A stretch of 64,000 nt of DNA from Paenibacillus sp. JNUCC32 (GTDB taxonomy: Bacteria > Bacillota > Bacilli > Paenibacillales > Paenibacillaceae), in assembly GCF_014863545.1 (NCBI RefSeq), contig NZ_CP062260.1, positions 682,001 through 746,000 of the forward strand. Reading direction: 5' to 3'. A model generated the notes under the pieces. It had not been told where the DNA came from and searched no databases. It saw only the letters and a program-made list of their open reading frames with translations. Below are positions 37,592 to 59,353 of the stretch, piece after piece. Within the stretch, counting starts at the first letter, position 1, and each line of letters opens with the position of its first letter. Both the position numbers and the translations under genes were made by a program.

Positions 37592-37777
37592 ATGAAAAAG
37601 TCACTACTTCAATGGGTTATCATGCTATCGGCAGTTTACTGTATAGGACATATCTTATTTGATTTTAAAGAAACGCGATGGATGAGGATTCTTACCGGGG
37701 CAGTTGAAATATCATTCTTTGGAAGCATACTTCTCTATATTTATTTAAAAAGCGCCGAGGGAAATGAAAGGAATTAA
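37592..37777 (+). CDS. Small two-helix membrane protein (61 aa)
   Basis: It has two hydrophobic segments (LLQWVIMLSAVYCIGHILF, then ILTGAVEISFFGSILLYIYL) with a short polar loop. The ribosome site is AAGGAG, about 11 bases upstream. It is followed after two bases by the next gene, so the two are probably co-transcribed. No family recognised. Base composition is AT-rich compared with the flanking operons. Confidence 0.6.
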   Translation: MKKSLLQWVIMLSAVYCIGHILFDFKETRWMRILTGAVEISFFGSILLYIYLKSAEGNERN

Positions 37778-37779
37778 GT

Positions 37780-38253
37780 ATGAAGAGATATATTGAGTTT
37801 TCTTTTTATCTACCGTTTTTTGATTTGATAGATGATACGGACGAGGTATTCAATTTAGAAGAAATAATGAGACAACTAGATATTAGTTTTAATAAGATGG
37901 AATTGTATAACCAGTATTTATCTTATGGTGAAGGACCATTTAGGGCAGGAAAGGGAGACATTTTTGTCTTTTTTAAGAAAAATGATAAGGATAGTTTTAT
38001 ATTAATAGATTTGTTTAACGATTTTACCGATCAGCATAACATGGTGAAATTAGGAGTGCGTTGTGAAATTAAATATGATAAACAGATAAGGAATATACTA
38101 TATAATATTCATTCTGGGGCAGAGATTAAAAGTAAAACAAAAGAGAGTCATGATGATTTACTGAAGTTGGAGATCAGCAGCGAAGATTATCCAAAAGAAA
38201 TCCGTTATGGGGATCGAAAATACATAAAAAACATTTATTATGACGCTTTCTAA
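37780..38253 (+). CDS. Hypothetical protein, AT-rich accessory gene (157 aa)
   Basis: This soluble acidic protein with many Ile, Asp, Lys and aromatic residues has no recognisable motif. Codons are strongly AT-biased (AAA, ATT, TTT, GAT), unlike the neighbouring operons, which suggests recent transfer. The size and charge would suit an immunity-type protein, but nothing proves it. It is co-directional with the preceding small membrane protein and followed by a repeat element at 38293. Confidence 0.6.
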   Translation: MKRYIEFSFYLPFFDLIDDTDEVFNLEEIMRQLDISFNKMELYNQYLSYGEGPFRAGKGDIFVFFKKNDKDSFILIDLFNDFTDQHNMVKLGVRCEIKYDKQIRNILYNIHSGAEIKSKTKESHDDLLKLEISSEDYPKEIRYGDRKYIKNIYYDAF

Positions 38254-38292
38254 ACATCATGTTAGCAGTTCAAGAAGGCAGGAGATACATCT

Positions 38293-38440
38293 ATAACATA
38301 ATATTCGCGTTGCGGGGGCTTACACCCCTCGATCGTCCGATGTATAATCATGGAAGATAACTCGGATGACATCGAGCCGACCTAAGATAGGAGCTATCTA
38401 AGGCCGGCTCTCGTCGTAAATAAAGGAACGTTATTCAGAA
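38293..38440 (+). repeat. Hairpin repeat copy R1 (long form)
   Basis: Starts with TAACATAATATTCGCG and contains GGGGGCTTACACCCCTCGATC, followed by CATGGAAGA. The inner stem TCGTCCGA/TCGGATGA is followed by a second stem GAGCCG/CGGCTC. It ends with GAACGTTATTC, complementary to the left end. It lies right after the unknown gene at 37780 and aligns with R2. Confidence 0.65.
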
Positions 38441-38499
38441 ATTAGTGCAACTTATTAAACCAACAAATCATTTATGTTTTTCATGGGAGGTTATTAATA

Positions 38500-38880
38500 T
38501 TGCAAAGTCCAATTGCAAGCAGGGTAGATACAATCTTTATTCATGTAAGAGACTTAGAGAAGTCTGTAGACTGGTACAGCAAACTCCTTGGAATCGAAGT
38601 TAAAGATATAATCCAAGGACCAATTTATACTTTCGATATGGGACCTGGACGCCCTGGGCTAACACTTGATAATCATTGTTTTGATGAGATGTACGAACTG
38701 AAGACGTCGAATCAACCATTATTTAATTTGAGTGCAGATGATATCAATGCAGCGTATCGGTTTGTAAAAGAATTGGAAGCAGAGATTGTAACTGAAATTC
38801 AAACATTCCCTGATTTATCGGATTTCACATTTAAAGATCCTGATGGGAATATATTAATGATTTGTACTTGTTTCAGTTAA
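38500..38880 (+). CDS. VOC family (glyoxalase/bleomycin-resistance) protein
   Basis: This 126-residue protein has two babab repeats of the vicinal-oxygen-chelate fold: TIFIHVRDLEKSVDWYSKLLG at the start and FKDPDGNILMIC at the end. The first metal position is His and the last Asp/Asn-Ile-like (no clear Glu), so metal binding may be incomplete. Start TTG with GGGAGG upstream. A single gene between two repeats of the same family. Confidence 0.85.
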   Translation: MQSPIASRVDTIFIHVRDLEKSVDWYSKLLGIEVKDIIQGPIYTFDMGPGRPGLTLDNHCFDEMYELKTSNQPLFNLSADDINAAYRFVKELEAEIVTEIQTFPDLSDFTFKDPDGNILMICTCFS

Positions 38881-38922
38881 TGCCGAGATAGACTTATACG
38901 AGTATTTTTGGAGAAGGCACTA

Positions 38923-38965
38923 GCATCATATTGACGCATTGGGCTATTCCTCTCGATCTAAGTGG
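38923..38965 (+). repeat. Hairpin repeat copy R5 (degenerate)
   Basis: ATCATATTGACGCATTGGGC, then TATTCCTCTCGATC, aligns with the left half of R1/R2 (ATATTCACG..GGGC..CCCTCGGTC). The right half is not recognisable. It sits between the VOC and ankyrin genes. Confidence 0.4.
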
Positions 38966-39039
38966 AAAATGGTAAAATATAGGGTTTTTATCGAAAAGAA
39001 GAAGATATATAAATTCTGACGTCAGGAGAGAAAGCACAT

Positions 39040-40095
39040 ATGGGCAAGAAGAAAAAAAACTTACCGAAAAATTTTGATGAACTCATTGAAGCAGGCGATT
39101 TATCCGCATTACAAGAGGTATTTACCCGATGCGAATTGGATGCCCGTGGCGGTTACAGTAAATCAACAGCCTTGAGCTTTTACCAAGTACCGAATGAATT
39201 GGTTCGCTGGCTCGTAGAACAGGGTGCTGATATCAATGCTAGAGACAATTACGGAGCAACGCCTCTGCACAAACATGCCATGAGTTGGTGTAGTCATACG
39301 GAGCTGCTGCTTGATTTGGGTGCAGATCTGGAAGCCGTTGATGATCAGAACGAGACACCGTTATTTGCCGCCGCAGGTTCATTTAAACCAAAAGCGGTTC
39401 ACACGTTGGTTGCTAAAGGCGCTAATATCAGCGCAATAAATAAAATGAGACAGACTCCATTAGAAAAAGCTTTGGCCATGTGCAGGAACGCGGACATTGT
39501 CAATATGGCGGAAGTTGCCGATATTTTGCTAAACGCTGGAACAACTGTAACGCCGGAGATGCAAGACTCTATTAAGCGAATCGGAAACGACTTTGAATTT
39601 CACAGAGAAGGTTTTAATAAAGAATATTTGAATCAAACCGATGAGGCACTTTTACGTCTATATGAGCTATTTGATGTTCCTCCAGTAGAGAAGCGAAAGA
39701 CGCACGACGGCGCCTCTTCGATAACAGTATCAACAAAGGGATGGCAGGCACAACATCATGAACTCTGGAATTTACTCATTCCTTCAAAAGGACATGCAAA
39801 AACCGTACAGGGTGAGGTTATCCGGATTACTGGTAAAGTGTCATACGAAATTTTAGATAATGGCGGTATGAATTGGGATGATCAATATCGTAAAATGCTC
39901 AATCGTTTGATACATTACTTTAGCTTGGGTACACCATTAAATCCCGCTTCACTTCAGGAGGCAGGAATATTAGCGAAAGAACTTCACAACGGAAATGGCA
40001 GCGATGAGCCTGCGAGACTGTGCGAGCTGGCAGTGCATTGGGTTCTCAGCAATCCGAATCCTATTACTCTGGAGCAGCCTGACTATAAGCGATAA
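39040..40095 (+). CDS. Ankyrin-repeat protein
   Basis: The 351-residue protein starts with a basic tail, then four or so ankyrin repeats (about residues 15-165), for example INARDNYGATPLHKHAM, DLEAVDDQNETPLFAAA and INKMRQTPLEKAL. The C-terminal half (about 190-351) is a separate domain with PSKGHAKTVQGEVIRI and WDDQYRKMLNRLIHYF, which I do not recognise by function, although this pairing with ankyrins recurs in firmicute proteins. Probably a protein-protein interaction module. It has its own terminator. Confidence 0.83.
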   Translation: MGKKKKNLPKNFDELIEAGDLSALQEVFTRCELDARGGYSKSTALSFYQVPNELVRWLVEQGADINARDNYGATPLHKHAMSWCSHTELLLDLGADLEAVDDQNETPLFAAAGSFKPKAVHTLVAKGANISAINKMRQTPLEKALAMCRNADIVNMAEVADILLNAGTTVTPEMQDSIKRIGNDFEFHREGFNKEYLNQTDEALLRLYELFDVPPVEKRKTHDGASSITVSTKGWQAQHHELWNLLIPSKGHAKTVQGEVIRITGKVSYEILDNGGMNWDDQYRKMLNRLIHYFSLGTPLNPASLQEAGILAKELHNGNGSDEPARLCELAVHWVLSNPNPITLEQPDYKR

Positions 40096-40147
40096 CATAT
40101 ATTCGACTTATCAATGTATATAATAAGCATTTTTAAGCAGAATACAT

Positions 40148-40195
40148 TCCCTTTTTCTAAGCACTTCGTAGCTAAGAAAAAGGGGATATTATTTA
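40148..40195 (+). terminator. Terminator after the ankyrin gene
   Basis: TCCCTTTTTCTAAGCA pairs with TAGCTAAGAAAAAGGGGA around CTTCG, followed by a T-rich tail. Confidence 0.75.
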
Positions 40196-40288
40196 AATTT
40201 AATACATAAGAAATGTAAAGAGCGAAGTGAAATGAAGGAACTAATGAAGTGCGTTGTAGAATTACTCGAAGAAGATATTGACATCTGA

Positions 40289-40436
40289 TAACACCATATT
40301 CACGAAACGCGGCTTACACCCCTTGGTCTGCCAGAGACATGGAAGAAGTCATTTCAGGCAGACAACCCTGCACCACCTAAATGCATGGTAGCCTGTCGCT
40401 CTGCTCCTTTAAGGGGTTAGGATTCGTGAATACAAG
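40289..40436 (+). repeat. Hairpin repeat copy R2 (long form, best preserved)
   Basis: Ends ATTCACGAA (from 40299) and TTCGTGAAT pair perfectly, and just inside CACCCCTT pairs with AAGGGG. An inner stem GTCTGCC/GGCAGAC encloses CATGGAAGAAG. The left part reads TAACACCATATTCACGAA, then GGCTTACACCCCTTGGTC. It lies in the 388-base gap between the ankyrin and DinB genes. Confidence 0.7.
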
Positions 40437-40483
40437 AACTTTATAGGAAATATCCGCAAAATATTAAAGAAAGGGAGTTTTTT

Positions 40484-40990
40484 ATGGAGCTTCAAGAAAT
40501 CAAACAAAAATTAAAAGAGACCAGAGACGAATTATTTGGAATTCTTACTGGGTTGAGCGGAGATCAATTAAACCAACAGAAAGACTTAAACAGTTGGAGT
40601 ATTAGTCAGGTCTGTCAACATCTTTTTAAAACAGAGGAATTATATGTCGTAGCTATAAAGAAAGGGTTAAAGAGCAAAGAAGATTCGTTTATAGAAAATA
40701 AATCAGTCGAATTTCTGCTTGATAGAAGTCAAAAGCTAGAAGCTCCTGACATCGCTAAACCAACGGATGAATTTTTAGAATATGAAGAGATCATTGAGAA
40801 ACTAAACAATTCAAGACAGAAGTTACTTGAGCTATTAAATACAGTAGAAGACGAGTCAGTGCTGAGTAGAAGACATTTTATGCACCCAGTCTTTAAAGAT
40901 ATGTTATTAATTGAATGGGTTAAATCACTGTACTTACATGAACAAAGGCATATTAATCAAATAAATGAAATTATAGATAGACTTAAGTAA
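40484..40990 (+). CDS. DinB family protein (DinB_2)
   Basis: This 168-residue four-helix protein has the DinB/YfiT metal-site arrangement: His in SISQVCQHLFKTEE and a C-terminal HEQRHINQI that supplies the other two ligands. Many members act as thiol-dependent transferases (bacillithiol S-transferases), but this one's activity is unassigned. A strong AAAGGGAG site precedes the ATG. A single gene between repeat copies, AT-rich. Confidence 0.85.
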   Translation: MELQEIKQKLKETRDELFGILTGLSGDQLNQQKDLNSWSISQVCQHLFKTEELYVVAIKKGLKSKEDSFIENKSVEFLLDRSQKLEAPDIAKPTDEFLEYEEIIEKLNNSRQKLLELLNTVEDESVLSRRHFMHPVFKDMLLIEWVKSLYLHEQRHINQINEIIDRLK

Positions 40991-40997
40991 ATAAGCT

Positions 40998-41059
40998 GCA
41001 TATTCGAAAAAAAGGTGGATACAACCTATAGTTGGACATCGTGAATACATTAACGTTAG
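40998..41059 (+). repeat. Hairpin repeat copy R6 (truncated or degenerate)
   Basis: Left end GCATATTCG and right end ATCGTGAATACATTAACGTTAG resemble the outer ends of R2 (ATATTCACG, CGTGAATAC). The middle is missing. It lies between the DinB and phosphotransferase genes. Confidence 0.35.
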
Positions 41060-41098
41060 CCGAAACAACAAAAACCTAAAAGACAGGAGTTACCTTTA

Positions 41099-41953
41099 AT
41101 GTTATATACATTAGGACAAAAAATCGGAGAAGGTGGATGCTCTGAGGTTTTCGAAGTAGGGAATAATAGAATCATAAAACTAGCCAAAGAGAATACAAGT
41201 TTCGAAGCTTTAAGAAGAGAGTATTTGAATAATTGCATCGCTTGGGAATGTGGACTCCCTATTCCTCAGCCTTTTGAGTTAACGAAAATGAGTGGAAGAC
41301 CGGGGATTGTATTCGAACATATTGCAGGTAAAACTATGATGGAGCGTTTTTTTAATCAGGTTATCGTTAGCCATAACAACGAAGTTAAACAAGCGGACGT
41401 CCAGCTTACAGCTCAACTACTATTTCGCGTTCACCAAGCATTAGCTGAAGGTAAGGAATTGCCCTGCCAGAAAAGCATAATAAAATCAAACATTTTGAGT
41501 GTTAATTACCTGAGTGCCAGTGAAAAAGAGAGCGCAATTTCCTTATTAGAATCGCTAGAAACGAAACAATGCCTGTGTCATGGTGATCCAAATCCACGCA
41601 ACGTAATCGTCAAGGATGACGGAGAAGCAATCTTGTTAGACTGGATGAATGCAACCATAGGAAATCCTGAAGCAGATATTGCTGAGTATATTGTAATGAT
41701 TCGATATGCCGTATTGCCGTCCTCCTTTCCCGAGGAAACTAGAGATATGTTTGATTCGATTCGTGAGGATCTAATTGACATATTTATAGACGAATACTAT
41801 AGACTCTCTGGGATTTCTTATGATGATGTAGAGCCTTGGATAATACCGATTTTAGCAAGGAAATTGTCTGCTGATGCCATATCTGATGTTGAGAAGAAGA
41901 AGCTAGTTGCAGAGATAAGAAGAGACTTAGGGAAACAGAAAAATCGAGTGTAG
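41099..41953 (+). CDS. Aminoglycoside phosphotransferase/kinase-like family protein
   Basis: This 284-residue protein kinase-like phosphotransferase has a Gly-rich loop IGEGGCSEVF, Lys in RIIKLAKE, a Brenner-type catalytic loop CLCHGDPNPRNVI with the catalytic Asp, and the metal Asp in LLDWMNATIG. APH-family members phosphorylate antibiotics, choline or other small alcohols; the substrate cannot be told here. The GGAGTTACC site precedes the ATG. A single AT-rich gene, followed directly by repeat R3. Confidence 0.88.
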   Translation: MLYTLGQKIGEGGCSEVFEVGNNRIIKLAKENTSFEALRREYLNNCIAWECGLPIPQPFELTKMSGRPGIVFEHIAGKTMMERFFNQVIVSHNNEVKQADVQLTAQLLFRVHQALAEGKELPCQKSIIKSNILSVNYLSASEKESAISLLESLETKQCLCHGDPNPRNVIVKDDGEAILLDWMNATIGNPEADIAEYIVMIRYAVLPSSFPEETRDMFDSIREDLIDIFIDEYYRLSGISYDDVEPWIIPILARKLSADAISDVEKKKLVAEIRRDLGKQKNRV

Positions 41954-42031
41954 GCAATTCTTTCACGCTGGGGGCAATCCGGCCCTCGGTCCGGCAGAAG
42001 GTTTTCGAGAACCCTGATAACAGATTGCCCT
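41953..42031 (+). repeat. Hairpin repeat copy R3 (short form)
   Basis: GGGCAATC pairs with GATTGCCC at the ends, and GGTTTTCGAGAACC forms the inner hairpin. It contains TTTCACG, then CCCTCGGTCCGGCAG, shared with R4. It starts at the phosphotransferase stop and ends just before the convergent ECF operon, so it could also terminate either transcript. Confidence 0.6.
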
Positions 42032-42034
42032 GTC

Positions 42035-42616
42035 TTATTCAAGTAATCCCTTACTTATTTTCGTAATGAGATACCTGCTTATTTCTACCCATAGCCAGCT
42101 GTAGAAAAGCGAGAACACATAGACGATAGAGATCGTACTTAGGCTAACTGTAGATGAAACTGCAGGGCCCAGAACAGGAAATCGAAAAACGTATAGCAAC
42201 AAAAGGATTCCCGCCCACAAAGAAAACGATCCGGCAATCACGGCCGGCAAGCGTAATTTCAAATATAACAGCGAACCGCCAATCCCAAGCCCCAATAATC
42301 CTGTCGTAAAAGGAAAAACGATCAGTTCGCTAGGTTGGATAAAAAATACAAGCAGCATCGCGAGCAAATAGGCGGTCAGACCGGAACCGACGGAAAGGAT
42401 CGTACATAACACAATGGGGGCTGTGGCGAGGGGACTAATCAAGTAGCCTATCCCTGGCAATAAGCCTCCCATGGATTGAAAAATAGCGGATAACGAGGCA
42501 AGAAAAGCTACCGTAATCATTTTTCTTGTGGCAAATTGTGTCGCTCCATAACGGGTGTGAATCTCTGAAGCTTCTGCACTTACAGGCTTTAGCCAGTAAT
42601 TTTTCATGGAATTCAT
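42035..42616 (-). CDS. ECF transporter substrate-binding (S) component, substrate unknown
   Basis: This 193-residue protein has six predicted helices; GGLLPGIGYLISPLATAP and LTAYLLAMLLVFF resemble Firmicute S components (vitamin-binding EcfS subunits). It is the last gene of an operon with the complete energising module (A1, A2, T), overlapping the T gene by ATGA. The order suggests a dedicated group I ECF importer. I cannot match it to BioY, ThiT, RibU or other named S proteins. Confidence 0.72.
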   Translation of the reverse strand: MNSMKNYWLKPVSAEASEIHTRYGATQFATRKMITVAFLASLSAIFQSMGGLLPGIGYLISPLATAPIVLCTILSVGSGLTAYLLAMLLVFFIQPSELIVFPFTTGLLGLGIGGSLLYLKLRLPAVIAGSFSLWAGILLLLYVFRFPVLGPAVSSTVSLSTISIVYVFSLFYSWLWVEISRYLITKISKGLLE

Positions 42617-53383: not shown

Positions 53384-53908
53384 GTGTATTTTCTCCAAAT
53401 GTCGGGTTTTCCGGGCTCGGGAAAATCAACGCTTGCTAGACGAATTGCCAATATAACTGGGGCTGTCATTGTTGACCATGATATATCTAAAACGGCAATA
53501 TTAAAGTCAACAGAAGGACTTGATATTGAAATGAAACATCTTGGCAAAATTTCATACACGGTTGATTGGGATTTGGTCGAGTTTTATTTATCGCAAGGTC
53601 ATGATGTTATATTTGATGCTCCTTGTTTATATTCGGAGATGCTTGATCAAGGATTGCGATTAGCAAAGAAATATCACGCCAAGTACAAATATATAGAATG
53701 TTACCTTAACGATTACAAGGAAATTAGTAACAGGCTTCAAAATCGAAAACGAATGATAAGCCAAATATCGGAGACGACTGAAGAATCATTTATATCTGGT
53801 TTAAATGAAAGTAAACGACCATTAGACATAAAGTATCTGACTATTGATTCTTCGCAACCCATTGAAAGTTACTTAAACAATGTCTTGGATTATCTAAAGG
53901 AAAAATAA
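53384..53908 (+). CDS. P-loop kinase-like protein (AAA_33/zeta-toxin-like fold)
   Basis: This 174-residue protein has Walker A GFPGSGKST at residues 8-16 and IVDHDISKTAIL (an acidic second motif). After DVIFDAPCLY come Arg-rich helices (ISNRLQNRKR) resembling the lid of small-molecule kinases. The family includes polynucleotide, chloramphenicol and uncharacterised kinases. The substrate is unknown. GTG start with GAGGTG upstream. AT-rich single gene, possibly acquired. Confidence 0.78.
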   Translation: MYFLQMSGFPGSGKSTLARRIANITGAVIVDHDISKTAILKSTEGLDIEMKHLGKISYTVDWDLVEFYLSQGHDVIFDAPCLYSEMLDQGLRLAKKYHAKYKYIECYLNDYKEISNRLQNRKRMISQISETTEESFISGLNESKRPLDIKYLTIDSSQPIESYLNNVLDYLKEK

Positions 53909-57484: not shown

Positions 57485-58258
57485 TCAATCGCCCCTTTGC
57501 AAGCAGTATCCATATTATGCGGAGCATTTGGCATATCATCCATCGGGGACTCAAAAAAGAGTTGAGGAAAAGTATATTGCTGAGTAGGGAAGGCGGCAGC
57601 CTCGTTATGTAGATACAGAAATGAAGCTAAGCAAGTTAGCTCTAAAAGAAATCAAAATGGAATAGGATTAAGCGCATCATCAAGGGGTGGAGAAAACCAA
57701 GAGGAAACCCTGAGGGTATTAACAATTTAAGCCGGCAATCTTTGTTATGGCATAGACTTACATGCCCCAAATTCCACCTTTATATGCATATTAGCTTTCT
57801 AAGCGGTGTGCAATCCCTTATTACATCCATCCGAAGGAAGTATTCCAAGCCTTTTAGCCCCTATTCGTATATAAGGATCATTTGTGTCTTCATCCATGAA
57901 TCCTGATATACCTGTGAGAATCAAGCAGCTACGCCACTGCTTCTCTCAGCCCAAATGGATATATGCAAAATGCGTTTGCAGGCAACGAGTCCTTGTTGAG
58001 TAGGACCGTATAACTGCAACGGTGCAATAATATGTTTTATACATTTACCCACTTTGTCAAGGGATGAAACATGTACATCGAACGATTTTTAAGATTTGGT
58101 CCCTAGGGGCCAGAAGCGTCCTCGGAGGTAGGAGATATCCTGCCAATGGCTGGGAGTATTTACGAAGAGCGCGAATACACGTAATATGGAGGTGCTGATG
58201 AAGTGCGGAGATAAGATGTTAGCTGAAAAATCACCTGAAGCCGGAGAGGATGGAGACC
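57485..58258. other. 774-base gap without a clear gene
   Basis: The left end must hold the opuC promoter. The rest is of mixed composition with short open frames broken by stops, for example a 36-codon plus-strand stretch around 57890-58005 without a start signal. At 58187-58195 a GGAGGTGCTG site precedes an ATG (58199) opening a 47-codon frame that runs out of phase into the next gene. No RNA or repeat recognised. Confidence 0.6.
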
Positions 58259-58873
58259 ATGAAATTAGAGATTTTAACGGTGCCCTCGTTTTGGAAAACG
58301 GAAATGAAACAAAAATATTATCAACTTCAAGAGGACAATAGTAAATTGGTTGTTCTGTTTCCTGGAAAAAACTATCCCTGTGATAAGCCCATTCTACATT
58401 TTGCTGGAACTTCCGCGATTCAAAGTGGTTATGACTTAATGGTACTTGAATATGGATATCAAGCCGCGAGAACGGATTTGGATATTCATGATCTGCAAAG
58501 AGTAATAGAAGAGTGCCACGAATCGGTTCAACGAATCATAAGCAAGTATAAAGAGGTTGTTTTTATTAGTAAGAGCATAGGCACAATCGTCGCTGGAGAA
58601 GTTCATGAAAAACTTGAAATGCCAGTAAAACATCTATTTTTGACGCCGATTAAAGACACCATTCACTATATCAACAGGTTTAAGGGACTTGTGGTTTATG
58701 GTTCGAAGGATGAAGTGTTTAATCATGAACTTGCCAACCAAGTTATACTAGACAAGGCCACAGAGGTCATCGAAATTCCTAATGCCAACCATTCTTTAGA
58801 GACCAATCATGCTTCGGAAAGCGTTGAGGTTTTAAGCAAACTGGTAGGGATATATACGAATTTTCTAAATTAG
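58259..58873 (+). CDS. Alpha/beta-hydrolase family protein
   Basis: This 204-residue single-domain hydrolase has a first strand KLVVLFPGKNYPCDKP, nucleophile elbow FISKSIGTI (Ser-Lys-Ser-Ile-Gly, first Gly of GxSxG replaced by Ser), acidic residue in YGSKDEVF and His in NANHSLE, so a Ser-Asp-His triad is plausible. Substrate unknown. ATG 58259 is preferred because GGAGAGGA ends just before; the ATG at 58250 abuts the site. AT-rich, and followed by repeat R4, like the cassette genes near 40 kb. Confidence 0.78.
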   Translation: MKLEILTVPSFWKTEMKQKYYQLQEDNSKLVVLFPGKNYPCDKPILHFAGTSAIQSGYDLMVLEYGYQAARTDLDIHDLQRVIEECHESVQRIISKYKEVVFISKSIGTIVAGEVHEKLEMPVKHLFLTPIKDTIHYINRFKGLVVYGSKDEVFNHELANQVILDKATEVIEIPNANHSLETNHASESVEVLSKLVGIYTNFLN

Positions 58874-58908
58874 AGTAAGTTCTGTATGAAAAACAAGACG
58901 AATTTGTC

Positions 58909-58993
58909 TAACACCAAATTCACGATTCGAGACATTCGTCCCTCGTCCGGCAGTGAAGCTATTATATTAGTTCTCGAGTTCGTGATAACAACG
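58909..58993 (+). repeat. Hairpin repeat copy R4 (short form)
   Basis: Starts TAACACCAAATTCACGATTC and ends TCTCGAGTTCGTGAT, whose outer arms are complementary (ATTCACGATTCGAGA against TCTCGAGTTCGTGAT with few mismatches). It contains CGTCCCTCGTCCGGCAG as in R3. It lies 36 bases after the hydrolase stop. Confidence 0.65.
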
Positions 58994-59092
58994 TTTTGTA
59001 AGATAGCTGCGTACAATACATTTGAAACGCTACTGTAAAAATAAACTAATAAAATCCTATAAAACCGTTATAAAATGAGTTATACTGAGGTA

Positions 59093-59218
59093 AGAATGAG
59101 TAAGGAGCCGTGCGGGAACACGACTCCAGAGTACAATAACTGCATAAAGAGCAGTCGGCCACACTAGTTAGGTCGAGAAATAGACCGTTACCTTAGCCAG
59201 GGCGGTCTATTTCTTTTT
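59093..59218 (+). ncRNA. Candidate antisense antitoxin RNA of a type I toxin-antitoxin pair
   Basis: A TATACT (59081-59086) could start a rightward RNA near 59093 ending at the hairpin GAAATAGACCG (59177-59187) / CGGTCTATTTC (59203-59213) with a T-run. There is no open frame. It overlaps the 3' end of the leftward toxin transcript at the shared terminator, as in TxpA/RatA- and BsrG/SR4-like loci. The -35 is weak; the exact start is inferred. Confidence 0.5.
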
Positions 59219-59219
59219 C
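59177..59219. terminator. Bidirectional terminator shared by toxin mRNA and antisense RNA
   Basis: The 11-base perfect stem GAAATAGACCG / CGGTCTATTTC has a T-run on the right. On the left strand the stem begins inside the last toxin codons. Confidence 0.75.
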
Positions 59220-59290
59220 ATGTAGGTGAGCAATGCCAAAATGAACATGCCGAACATGAACATTAAGGAGATAGCATCTTTGACCTCCAT
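59207..59290 (-). CDS. Putative holin-like toxin, 27 residues (type I TA toxin)
   Basis: The peptide is MEVKDAISLMFMFGMF followed by ILALLTYMKKK: a single membrane helix with an acidic N-terminus and a Lys-rich end, the signature of Bacillales holin-like toxins. Start ATG 59290 lies eight bases from GGGAGG; another ATG at 59296 is too close. The ribosome site is inside a hairpin (CTCCC-CGAA-GGGAG), which would limit translation. An extended -10 (TGTTATAAT, 59362-59354) lies upstream. Too short for most gene finders. Confidence 0.72.
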   Translation of the reverse strand: MEVKDAISLMFMFGMFILALLTYMKKK

Positions 59291-59353
59291 GGGCATCACC
59301 TCCCTTCGGGGAGATTAGCCGACCGCCCTTATAGCCGATTATTGTACTAGAAA

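Follow-up and report, generated by a model that had tools for sequence, protein, structure and literature searches.

What are the hairpin repeats that stand between single genes in part of the Paenibacillus sp. JNUCC32 chromosome? The stretch analysed here, referred to as the window, comprises 64,000 nucleotides of the 7.0-Mb genome (G000:C1:682001-746000). Reading of the sequence between 36.8 and 42.8 kb of the window shows repeat stretches alternating with co-directional, AT-rich genes; the six genes of this array lie on one strand and have 30–44% GC, compared with 49% outside the array. The initial annotation distinguished six copies of the repeat (R1 to R6) and offered three readings of them: recombination sites of a cassette system, mobile hairpins resembling miniature inverted-repeat transposable elements (MITEs), or inserted terminators. 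We consider it very likely, on sequence comparison, that they are attC-like recombination sites of an integron-type platform, with the arrays in this genome probably frozen and the window piece decaying.

The main array and the repeat family

With R2 as a blastn query, nine further places were found in the genome, all at 2.824–2.849 Mb. They lie in a main array of 29 model sites at 2817843-2848596 (∼31 kb, median gap 733 bases), the genes of which are on the minus strand and mostly have 27–39% GC; GC content is 0.36 over the array and 0.51–0.52 in the flanking chromosome. The array is a tandem of mostly one-gene cassettes in a single orientation, each closed by a palindromic site, in agreement with the prediction that copies of the repeat would be found at the 3′ ends of genes. 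GNAT genes are present in four of the ten cassettes scanned, and in the first cassette as well. The array is headed by a Phage_integrase open reading frame (ORF) of 238 aa (2849270-2849986), which shares the strand of the cassettes.

Twenty-eight candidate sites of the main array were parsed, and 27 were retained, aligned and used for a covariance model. The model was trained on these sites alone (2.82–2.85 Mb locus) with the window copies held out, and the latter therefore provide an independent test of the repeat family; 144 kb were scored, and the E-values are rough. The claim of one repeat family in the gaps of the window array is firm for R1 and R2, for which it is beyond chance; for R3, R4 and R6, with weak scores, it is probable, and for R5, seen by eye alone, it is unproven. 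Of the 36 places that the model scores genome-wide at E up to 0.1, 29 belong to the main array, 27 of these being training sites; two are in the window, and the remaining five form a third cluster on the plus strand at 2272.5–2295.5 kb (G000:C1:2272470-2295500; L170, L171). The genome has six PF00589 matches, only one of which is at an array, and none was found near the third cluster. Nor is there a PF00589 match in the window (682001-746000), which had been noted as lacking an integrase; the recombinase of the main array, a decayed copy, is 2.1 Mb away in the same genome.

Site anatomy

The sites have a common plan of nnnnTAAC, four bases, an 8-bp L stem, a variable cap, seven bases and GTTAnnnn, from which single sites deviate in places. 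The L stem is TATTCACG/CGTGAATA, with compensated variants such as TATCTACG/CGTAGATA, the R stem is TAAC/GTTA, and the spacer is short and asymmetric (4 and 7 bases). The cap is branched, with about three hairpins: one short hairpin, a GGTCYG/CRGAC stem and a third hairpin. As cut here, the sites are 98–194 bases long, compared with 57–141 bases for attC in the relevant part of PMC3053210.

Seventeen of the 26 stem pairs vary on both sides and none of 500 shuffles reaches the covariation score; the structure was chosen on the same alignment, and versions slid by 1–3 columns drop to 29–42% of cells paired. The L stem is without bulged bases, in that 27 of the 28 right ends have an ungapped partner with 0–2 mismatches and 94% of cells are paired across the 27 sites. 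Folding of four sites from the main array (not the window copies) with DNA parameters on both strands gave z values of −3.2 to −7.0 relative to shuffles, and shuffles were as good in 2/200 cases in one of the eight folds and in none in the other seven. The L stem encloses three hairpins on both strands in three of these four sites, and in the fourth it is not fully closed. The likeness to the RYYYAAC end of attC that the initial annotation had pointed out at R4 is loose: AAC is kept in 25/27 sites and GTT in 24/27, and the strict motifs fit fewer sites (RYYYAAC 5/27, GTTRRRY 3/27).

Cassette ends and moving units

Because an integron cassette travels as a circle in which the site spans the joint, the bases that lie outside AAC at the end of a cassette are expected to pair with the bases outside GTT at its own start, and not with those on the opposite side of the one site. 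In the main array a mean of 3.85 of the five outer bases pair in this way (11/27 perfect), compared to a mean of 2.86 (standard deviation 0.15) when cassettes are permuted, with 0 of 100,000 permutations as high as observed; the test retains one false site as well as worn sites. Pairing inside one site (2.89) is no better than permuted. Own-cassette pairing breaks down towards the distal end of the array, with scores of 1 to 3 for the final six pairs.

Units of gene and site also recur as blocks. The GNAT cassette adjoining the recombinase is found again in the third cluster with 98.3% identity, which starts at ACGTT and stops within GTTATA, and on either side the flanks change at GTT, which makes it a flank-swapped twin of cassette 1 of this genome. 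Duplicates within three other genomes (G016, G033 and G012) look similar. Among 22 stretches shared between arrays, the start, the end or both lie within 20 bp of a site GTT in 14, 8 and 6 cases, respectively, whereas shifted sets have means of 0.9, 1.0 and 0.16, the highest of 1000 being 6, 6 and 2. With 63 stretches and a limit of 15 bp, the corresponding values were 13, 10 and 4 versus 1.5, 1.4 and 0.16. The comparison of ends and breakpoints shows that units are joined at GTT and that the start and the end of a cassette are complementary, as they would be in a circle.

An attI-like site follows the recombinase and ends ..GAC^GTT in this genome; at most of the Paenibacillaceae loci printed, the first cassette begins, by eye, at a GTT after a semi-conserved stretch. 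At one locus (L080) a GAAGTTCG-type motif occurs, by eye, three times in the attI-like stretch after the recombinase stop, and we take these copies to resemble the accessory repeats of attI1.

The array-head recombinase

Full versions of the recombinase in relatives are 361–397 aa from stop to stop. The nearest solved structure by sequence is VchIntIA, the IntI of V. cholerae (2a3v), at 33% identity, and 2a3v is also the first Foldseek match of an AlphaFold model (mean predicted local distance difference test score, pLDDT, 86.6; predicted template modelling score, pTM, 0.57). The IntI-specific insertion of ∼40 residues is absent from the family, and in an alignment with V. cholerae IntI (IntI4) there are ∼20 residues where IntI4 has ∼60. 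The KDR motif and HxLRH are separated by 59–63 residues in all of the family proteins that were measurable (93/120), compared with 100 in 88/120 IntI1-like proteins and 96–99 in 6/120; the IntI1-like remainder has odd values in 15/120 (73 in seven and 63 in one among them) and is unmeasured in 11/120. At genome loci, where measurable, this distance is 55–64 (53/80). A looser motif pattern gives larger spacings (81 to 305) in 8/80 loci, and a stricter one gives 59–64 for those of the eight that are measurable at Paenibacillus loci.

All nine proteins scanned score below the cut-off of TIGR02249 (integron integrase). Eight full-length proteins score 208.5–225.3 bits with NF040815, the cut-off of which is 220, and two of them pass. 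IntI and the recombinase family group together in a tree, apart from eight Xer rows, albeit a tree that samples IntI1-like sequences alone for IntI and in which long branches meet.

The N-terminal ∼75 residues form a separate domain, recognised by motif in 33/80 loci and by eye in more. Pfam HARP (PF07443) matches 15 of these 33 domains, and the domain profile matches the SMARCAL1 HARP structure with an E-value of 9e-4. The structure list of the full model barely tests this region, and the N-terminal part was modelled alone; XPB and HARP recognition domains are among its top structural matches, all of them weak. HARP domains fused to other SNF2 proteins confer annealing-helicase activity, as described in part of PMC4035279, and we infer that the HARP-like domain may take part in handling the folded site.

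Several relatives carry broken copies of the gene, and at L045-L064 and other loci array-head recombinases have stops, frameshifts and truncations, yet large arrays persist; the enzyme is lost repeatedly while the arrays stay. A second, shorter type of recombinase (288–297 aa), without the N-terminal domain, is found in site-bearing genomes (G016:C1:27472-28230, 4596750-4597541 and 4614282-4615040; L060).

Distribution and co-occurrence

Sites are present in 41 of 60 genomes, including this one, and in 142 of 197 genomes of the same family, the Paenibacillaceae, representing 17 of 19 genera. The recombinase (E up to 1e-42) is found in 75 of the 197, and all 75 have sites. At least 10 of 14 scored sites are present in 70 of the 75 genomes with the recombinase compared to 25 of the 122 without it (Fisher 1e-25). 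The 197-genome counts were tallied by hand, and the multi-genome counts of sites and recombinases are lower bounds. In the set of 60, with this genome left out, the recombinase or fragments of it occur in 17/22 genomes with at least 10 sites (G012 being counted by fragments at E 8e-33) versus 2/37 others.

From a recombinase-profile scan of named genomes, the best 80 of 585 loci were used, which include Paenibacillus, Cohnella, Saccharibacillus, Halanaerobacter, Fusibacter, Flavobacterium, Arundinibacter, Brucepastera, Nitrospirae and Altarchaeum. Relatives of the recombinase head similar arrays in Bacteroidota, Spirochaetota, Nitrospirota and one archaeal bin; the archaeal and candidate-phylum cases are metagenome bins, with binning errors possible. 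The 80 loci were chosen by recombinase alone and read with one fixed site rule, the spacings of which were narrowed after an earlier 29-locus run. That pairing run used loci picked for visible repeats, and we rely on the 80-locus repeat instead.

Downstream of the recombinase there are 187 sites on its own strand and 14 on the other, with 10 upstream (395 kb downstream and 624 kb upstream). The 14 Paenibacillaceae loci have 64 downstream on the recombinase strand versus 3 on the other strand and 3 upstream, and the 66 other loci have 123 versus 11 and 7. At least three sites are present at 16 of 40 non-Paenibacillaceae loci with at least 2 kb downstream, and at 0/40 in either control. Outside the Paenibacillales the site sequences differ, with cores and spacing in common. 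Cassette ends at non-Paenibacillaceae loci pair with a mean of 4.09 (81 pairs, 53 perfect) versus 2.26 when permuted (0/20,000). The expectation that a tyrosine recombinase would co-occur with the repeats is thus borne out, and it heads the arrays on the same strand. We note that in 17/80 of the loci L075-L154 the contig ends no more than 500 bases past the recombinase match on the downstream side, and in 6/80 on the upstream side, an excess that is expected if downstream repeats break assemblies.

Proposed mechanism and alternatives

We propose a platform in which a chromosomal array is headed by the recombinase gene, lying on the cassette strand and followed by the attI-like site, and in which each cassette consists of one gene (sometimes two) and one folded site. 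By extension from integron biology, the enzyme would act on a folded single strand, and cassettes would leave as circles and enter at attI. With neither IntI insertion nor bulges, it may be the uneven spacer together with the N-terminal HARP-like domain that allows strand and site to be read. Two points limit this proposal. The 238-aa ORF of this genome lacks, by eye, the N-terminal part present in relatives and is a decayed copy, a loss that probably leaves the arrays here frozen; and the association and position of the head recombinase, strong as they are, are not proof that it moves the cassettes.

The hairpins are palindromic, repeated and 3′ of genes, as they would be if they were mobile elements of MITE or repetitive extragenic palindromic (REP) type, or terminators, that had settled behind genes. 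This is extremely improbable, since their orientation is uniform and linked to the recombinase (187 versus 14), gene and hairpin move whole, stems vary with compensation while core bases are conserved, and cassette ends pair across the gene better than do the outer bases of one hairpin. We rejected the MITE and terminator readings of the initial annotation on near-uniform orientation, moving gene and site units, and compensated stems; its reading of the repeats as cassette recombination sites is supported by own-cassette pairing, moving units and the association with the recombinase. It could also be that the cassette arrays are genuine and the head recombinase is a bystander, with another enzyme moving the cassettes. 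Many sites are present in 25/122 genomes with no scored recombinase, and some hosts (G016) have the second, shorter enzyme. We judge this very improbable given that 75/75 recombinase genomes have sites, that array-head position and strand are fixed in several phyla, and that five of the six PF00589 matches of this genome are away from arrays; the broken copies seen elsewhere could explain arrays without the enzyme.

Similarly improbable, if a little less so, is that these are ordinary IntI integrons in reverse orientation, like those of Treponema, transferred to Bacillota and with unremarkable attC sites. The arrays, the attI-like site, the joint at GTT and the AAC/GTT cores all have counterparts in integrons, the reverse orientation is known in Treponema denticola (described in part of PMC4909258), and VchIntIA is the closest solved structure at 33% identity. 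Moreover, TIGR02249 is the best-scoring family in one of the nine proteins scanned, and NF040815, which two of eight pass, is named 'site-specific tyrosine recombinase/integron integrase'. However, the KDR–HxLRH spacing (59–63 here, 100 in most IntI1-like proteins), the TIGR02249 scores (9/9 below cut-off) and the unbulged L stem (27/28 ungapped partners, 94% of cells paired) argue otherwise, and the covariance model finds nothing in a 7-kb class 1 integron region.

Relationship to known systems

The arrays resemble sedentary chromosomal integrons in having mostly one-gene cassettes on one strand, a palindromic 3′ site with an AAC/GTT core, a GTT joint with cassette ends complementary in the free form, a recombinase and attI-like site at the head, and AT-rich accessory cargo with many GNAT genes. 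They differ in that the recombinase lacks the IntI insertion, carries the N-terminal HARP-like domain in intact copies and is co-directional with the array, and in that the L stem is unbulged with a branched cap. The published definition of an integron (PMC9668308, PMC9024848) asks for a tyrosine recombinase whose IntI-specific domain lies near patch III, and spacing, IntI4 alignment and TIGR02249 scores place the present family outside that definition. Extrahelical L-stem bases, as set out in part of PMC3053210, are likewise absent from the sites. According to PMC3053210, the alpha-I2 helix of IntI contacts one bulged L-stem base, and the missing insertion and the missing bulged bases fit each other. 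By its sequence features the system looks like an integron in mechanism, although by published definition it is not an IntI integron.

Other systems share individual features. The Treponema denticola reverse integron, as described in part of PMC4909258, has its integrase oriented as the cassettes, a likeness by description; the Treponemataceae loci here (L120, L136, L143 and L145) have the short recombinase spacing. Among simple tyrosine recombinases, conservation of the insertion is incomplete in a subgroup described as integron-like (Smyshlyaev 2021, PMC8138268), and such sequences may thus have been classed before with their function unseen; the portion of that paper on the subgroup reports no cassette arrays for insertion-less members and does not contain the word HARP, whereas the recombinases here have a HARP-like domain. 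With XerA/NF040815 the family scores near the cut-off; XerA resolves chromosome dimers (PMC8138268), but these recombinases head cassette arrays and carry an extra N-terminal domain. A literature search of open-licence papers, without preprints, found no report of these arrays.

We think it rather likely that the arrays represent a second integron lineage parallel to IntI, with recombinases that lack the IntI domain and have a HARP-like one that may read branched DNA. Such a lineage would extend over Bacillota, Bacteroidota, Spirochaetota, Nitrospirota, Atribacterota and at least one archaeal bin, would be common in Paenibacillaceae, and would have escaped notice because the tools used for searching demand the IntI domain. 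By gaining the insertion, IntI may have emerged alongside this lineage or inside it, with attC bulges as the matching change. Integrons are described as very occasional in Firmicutes, where IntegronFinder 2.0 found one complete integron (Limnochorda pilosa) and a few clusters of attC sites lacking an integron integrase (CALINs; part of PMC9024848), while a review lists Firmicutes among integron-bearing phyla (part of PMC8618304). Among such bacteria, in which integrons are called very rare, one family here has sites in 142/197 genomes and the recombinase in 75. Provided that the enzyme works, cassettes can be recombined as folded strands without the IntI-specific domain, a large cassette reservoir has gone uncounted, and the sparse yields of integron searches in some phyla would be partly explained.

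The window array and its neighbours

The genes and sites of the window array, and R4 with the gene before it, are all on the plus strand and are as follows.

37592..37777, +, small ORF (61 aa), first gene of the array; matches no Pfam family
37780..38253, +, ORF (157 aa, 30% GC); matches no Pfam family
38290..38437, +, R1, attC-like site, TCTATAAC ... GTTATTCA; held-out model 64.0 bits, E 3e-12
38500..38880, +, VOC/glyoxalase gene, cassette cargo; Pfam PF00903, E 1e-12
38923..38975, +, R5, possible left half of a decayed site; by eye, no model score
39040..40095, +, ankyrin-repeat gene; Pfam scan, DNA match in the G018 array
40285..40447, +, R2, attC-like site; held-out model 111.5 bits, E 6e-23
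40484..40990, +, DinB-family gene; Pfam scan, DNA match within the G010 array span
40988..41062, +, R6, worn site with right end intact (CGTGAATAC..AACGTTAGCCG); 12.8 bits, E 1, motif by eye
41099..41953, +, APH-type phosphotransferase gene, cassette cargo; Pfam PF01636, E 7e-12
41963..42066, +, R3, worn site; model 20.0 bits, E 0.024
58250..58873, +, alpha/beta-hydrolase-like gene, lone and AT-rich, ahead of R4; PF20408 19.2 bits, below the family cut-off of 27
58905..59000, +, R4, lone worn site; model 19.8 bits, E 0.026

The repeats match no family in an Rfam search of the window. The last core of R2 is TTT where GTT is expected. R6 has kept, by eye, the complete right-end motif CGTGAATAC..AACGTTA, and no right half is recognisable in R5 and R3. 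Over 48–49 bases, R3 is 83–85% identical to sites in the G018 and G010 arrays, which belong to two other species.

Two adjacent genes of the window array have close relatives in these two different arrays. The ankyrin stretch (39002-40221) is 88.8% identical to G018-array DNA between two model-scored sites, and the DinB stretch (40441-40990) is 88.9% identical to DNA within the G010 array span, with the left limit of identity at the GTT core and a start of (G/T)TTATAGG. The DinB copy in G010 is without a site of its own, the nearest scored sites being ∼2 and ∼3 kb off. The five other window proteins compared have no match in 21 arrays at E up to 1e-8. In line with the prediction that gene and repeat units vary independently, units occur independently in other arrays. 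The left flank gene of the window array is present in 6/45 genomes and the right in 5/45 (own included); G010 is the one other genome with both, and there they are far apart.

Given the wear of its sites and the lack of a nearby recombinase, we read this piece, from its sequence, as a decaying array without an integrase, and as a worn satellite to a system that is larger. The description of a cassette-like array in the initial annotation is supported, with the correction that the main array is elsewhere in the genome. Like a CALIN, it has cassettes and at least two sites (R1 and R2) and no neighbouring integrase, but its sites are defined by their own covariance model and are not matched to canonical attC.

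A lone AAA_33 gene (53384-53908, +), with no adjoining scored site, has 35% GC in surroundings of 46–52%. Directly after R4 lies a BsrG type I toxin-antitoxin RNA (59105-59346, −; Rfam RF01412, 84.6 bits), and near-identical BsrG blocks are seen by eye in the main array at ∼2825.75–2826.05 kb and beside the G010 DinB copy. The BsrG RNA may stabilise arrays.

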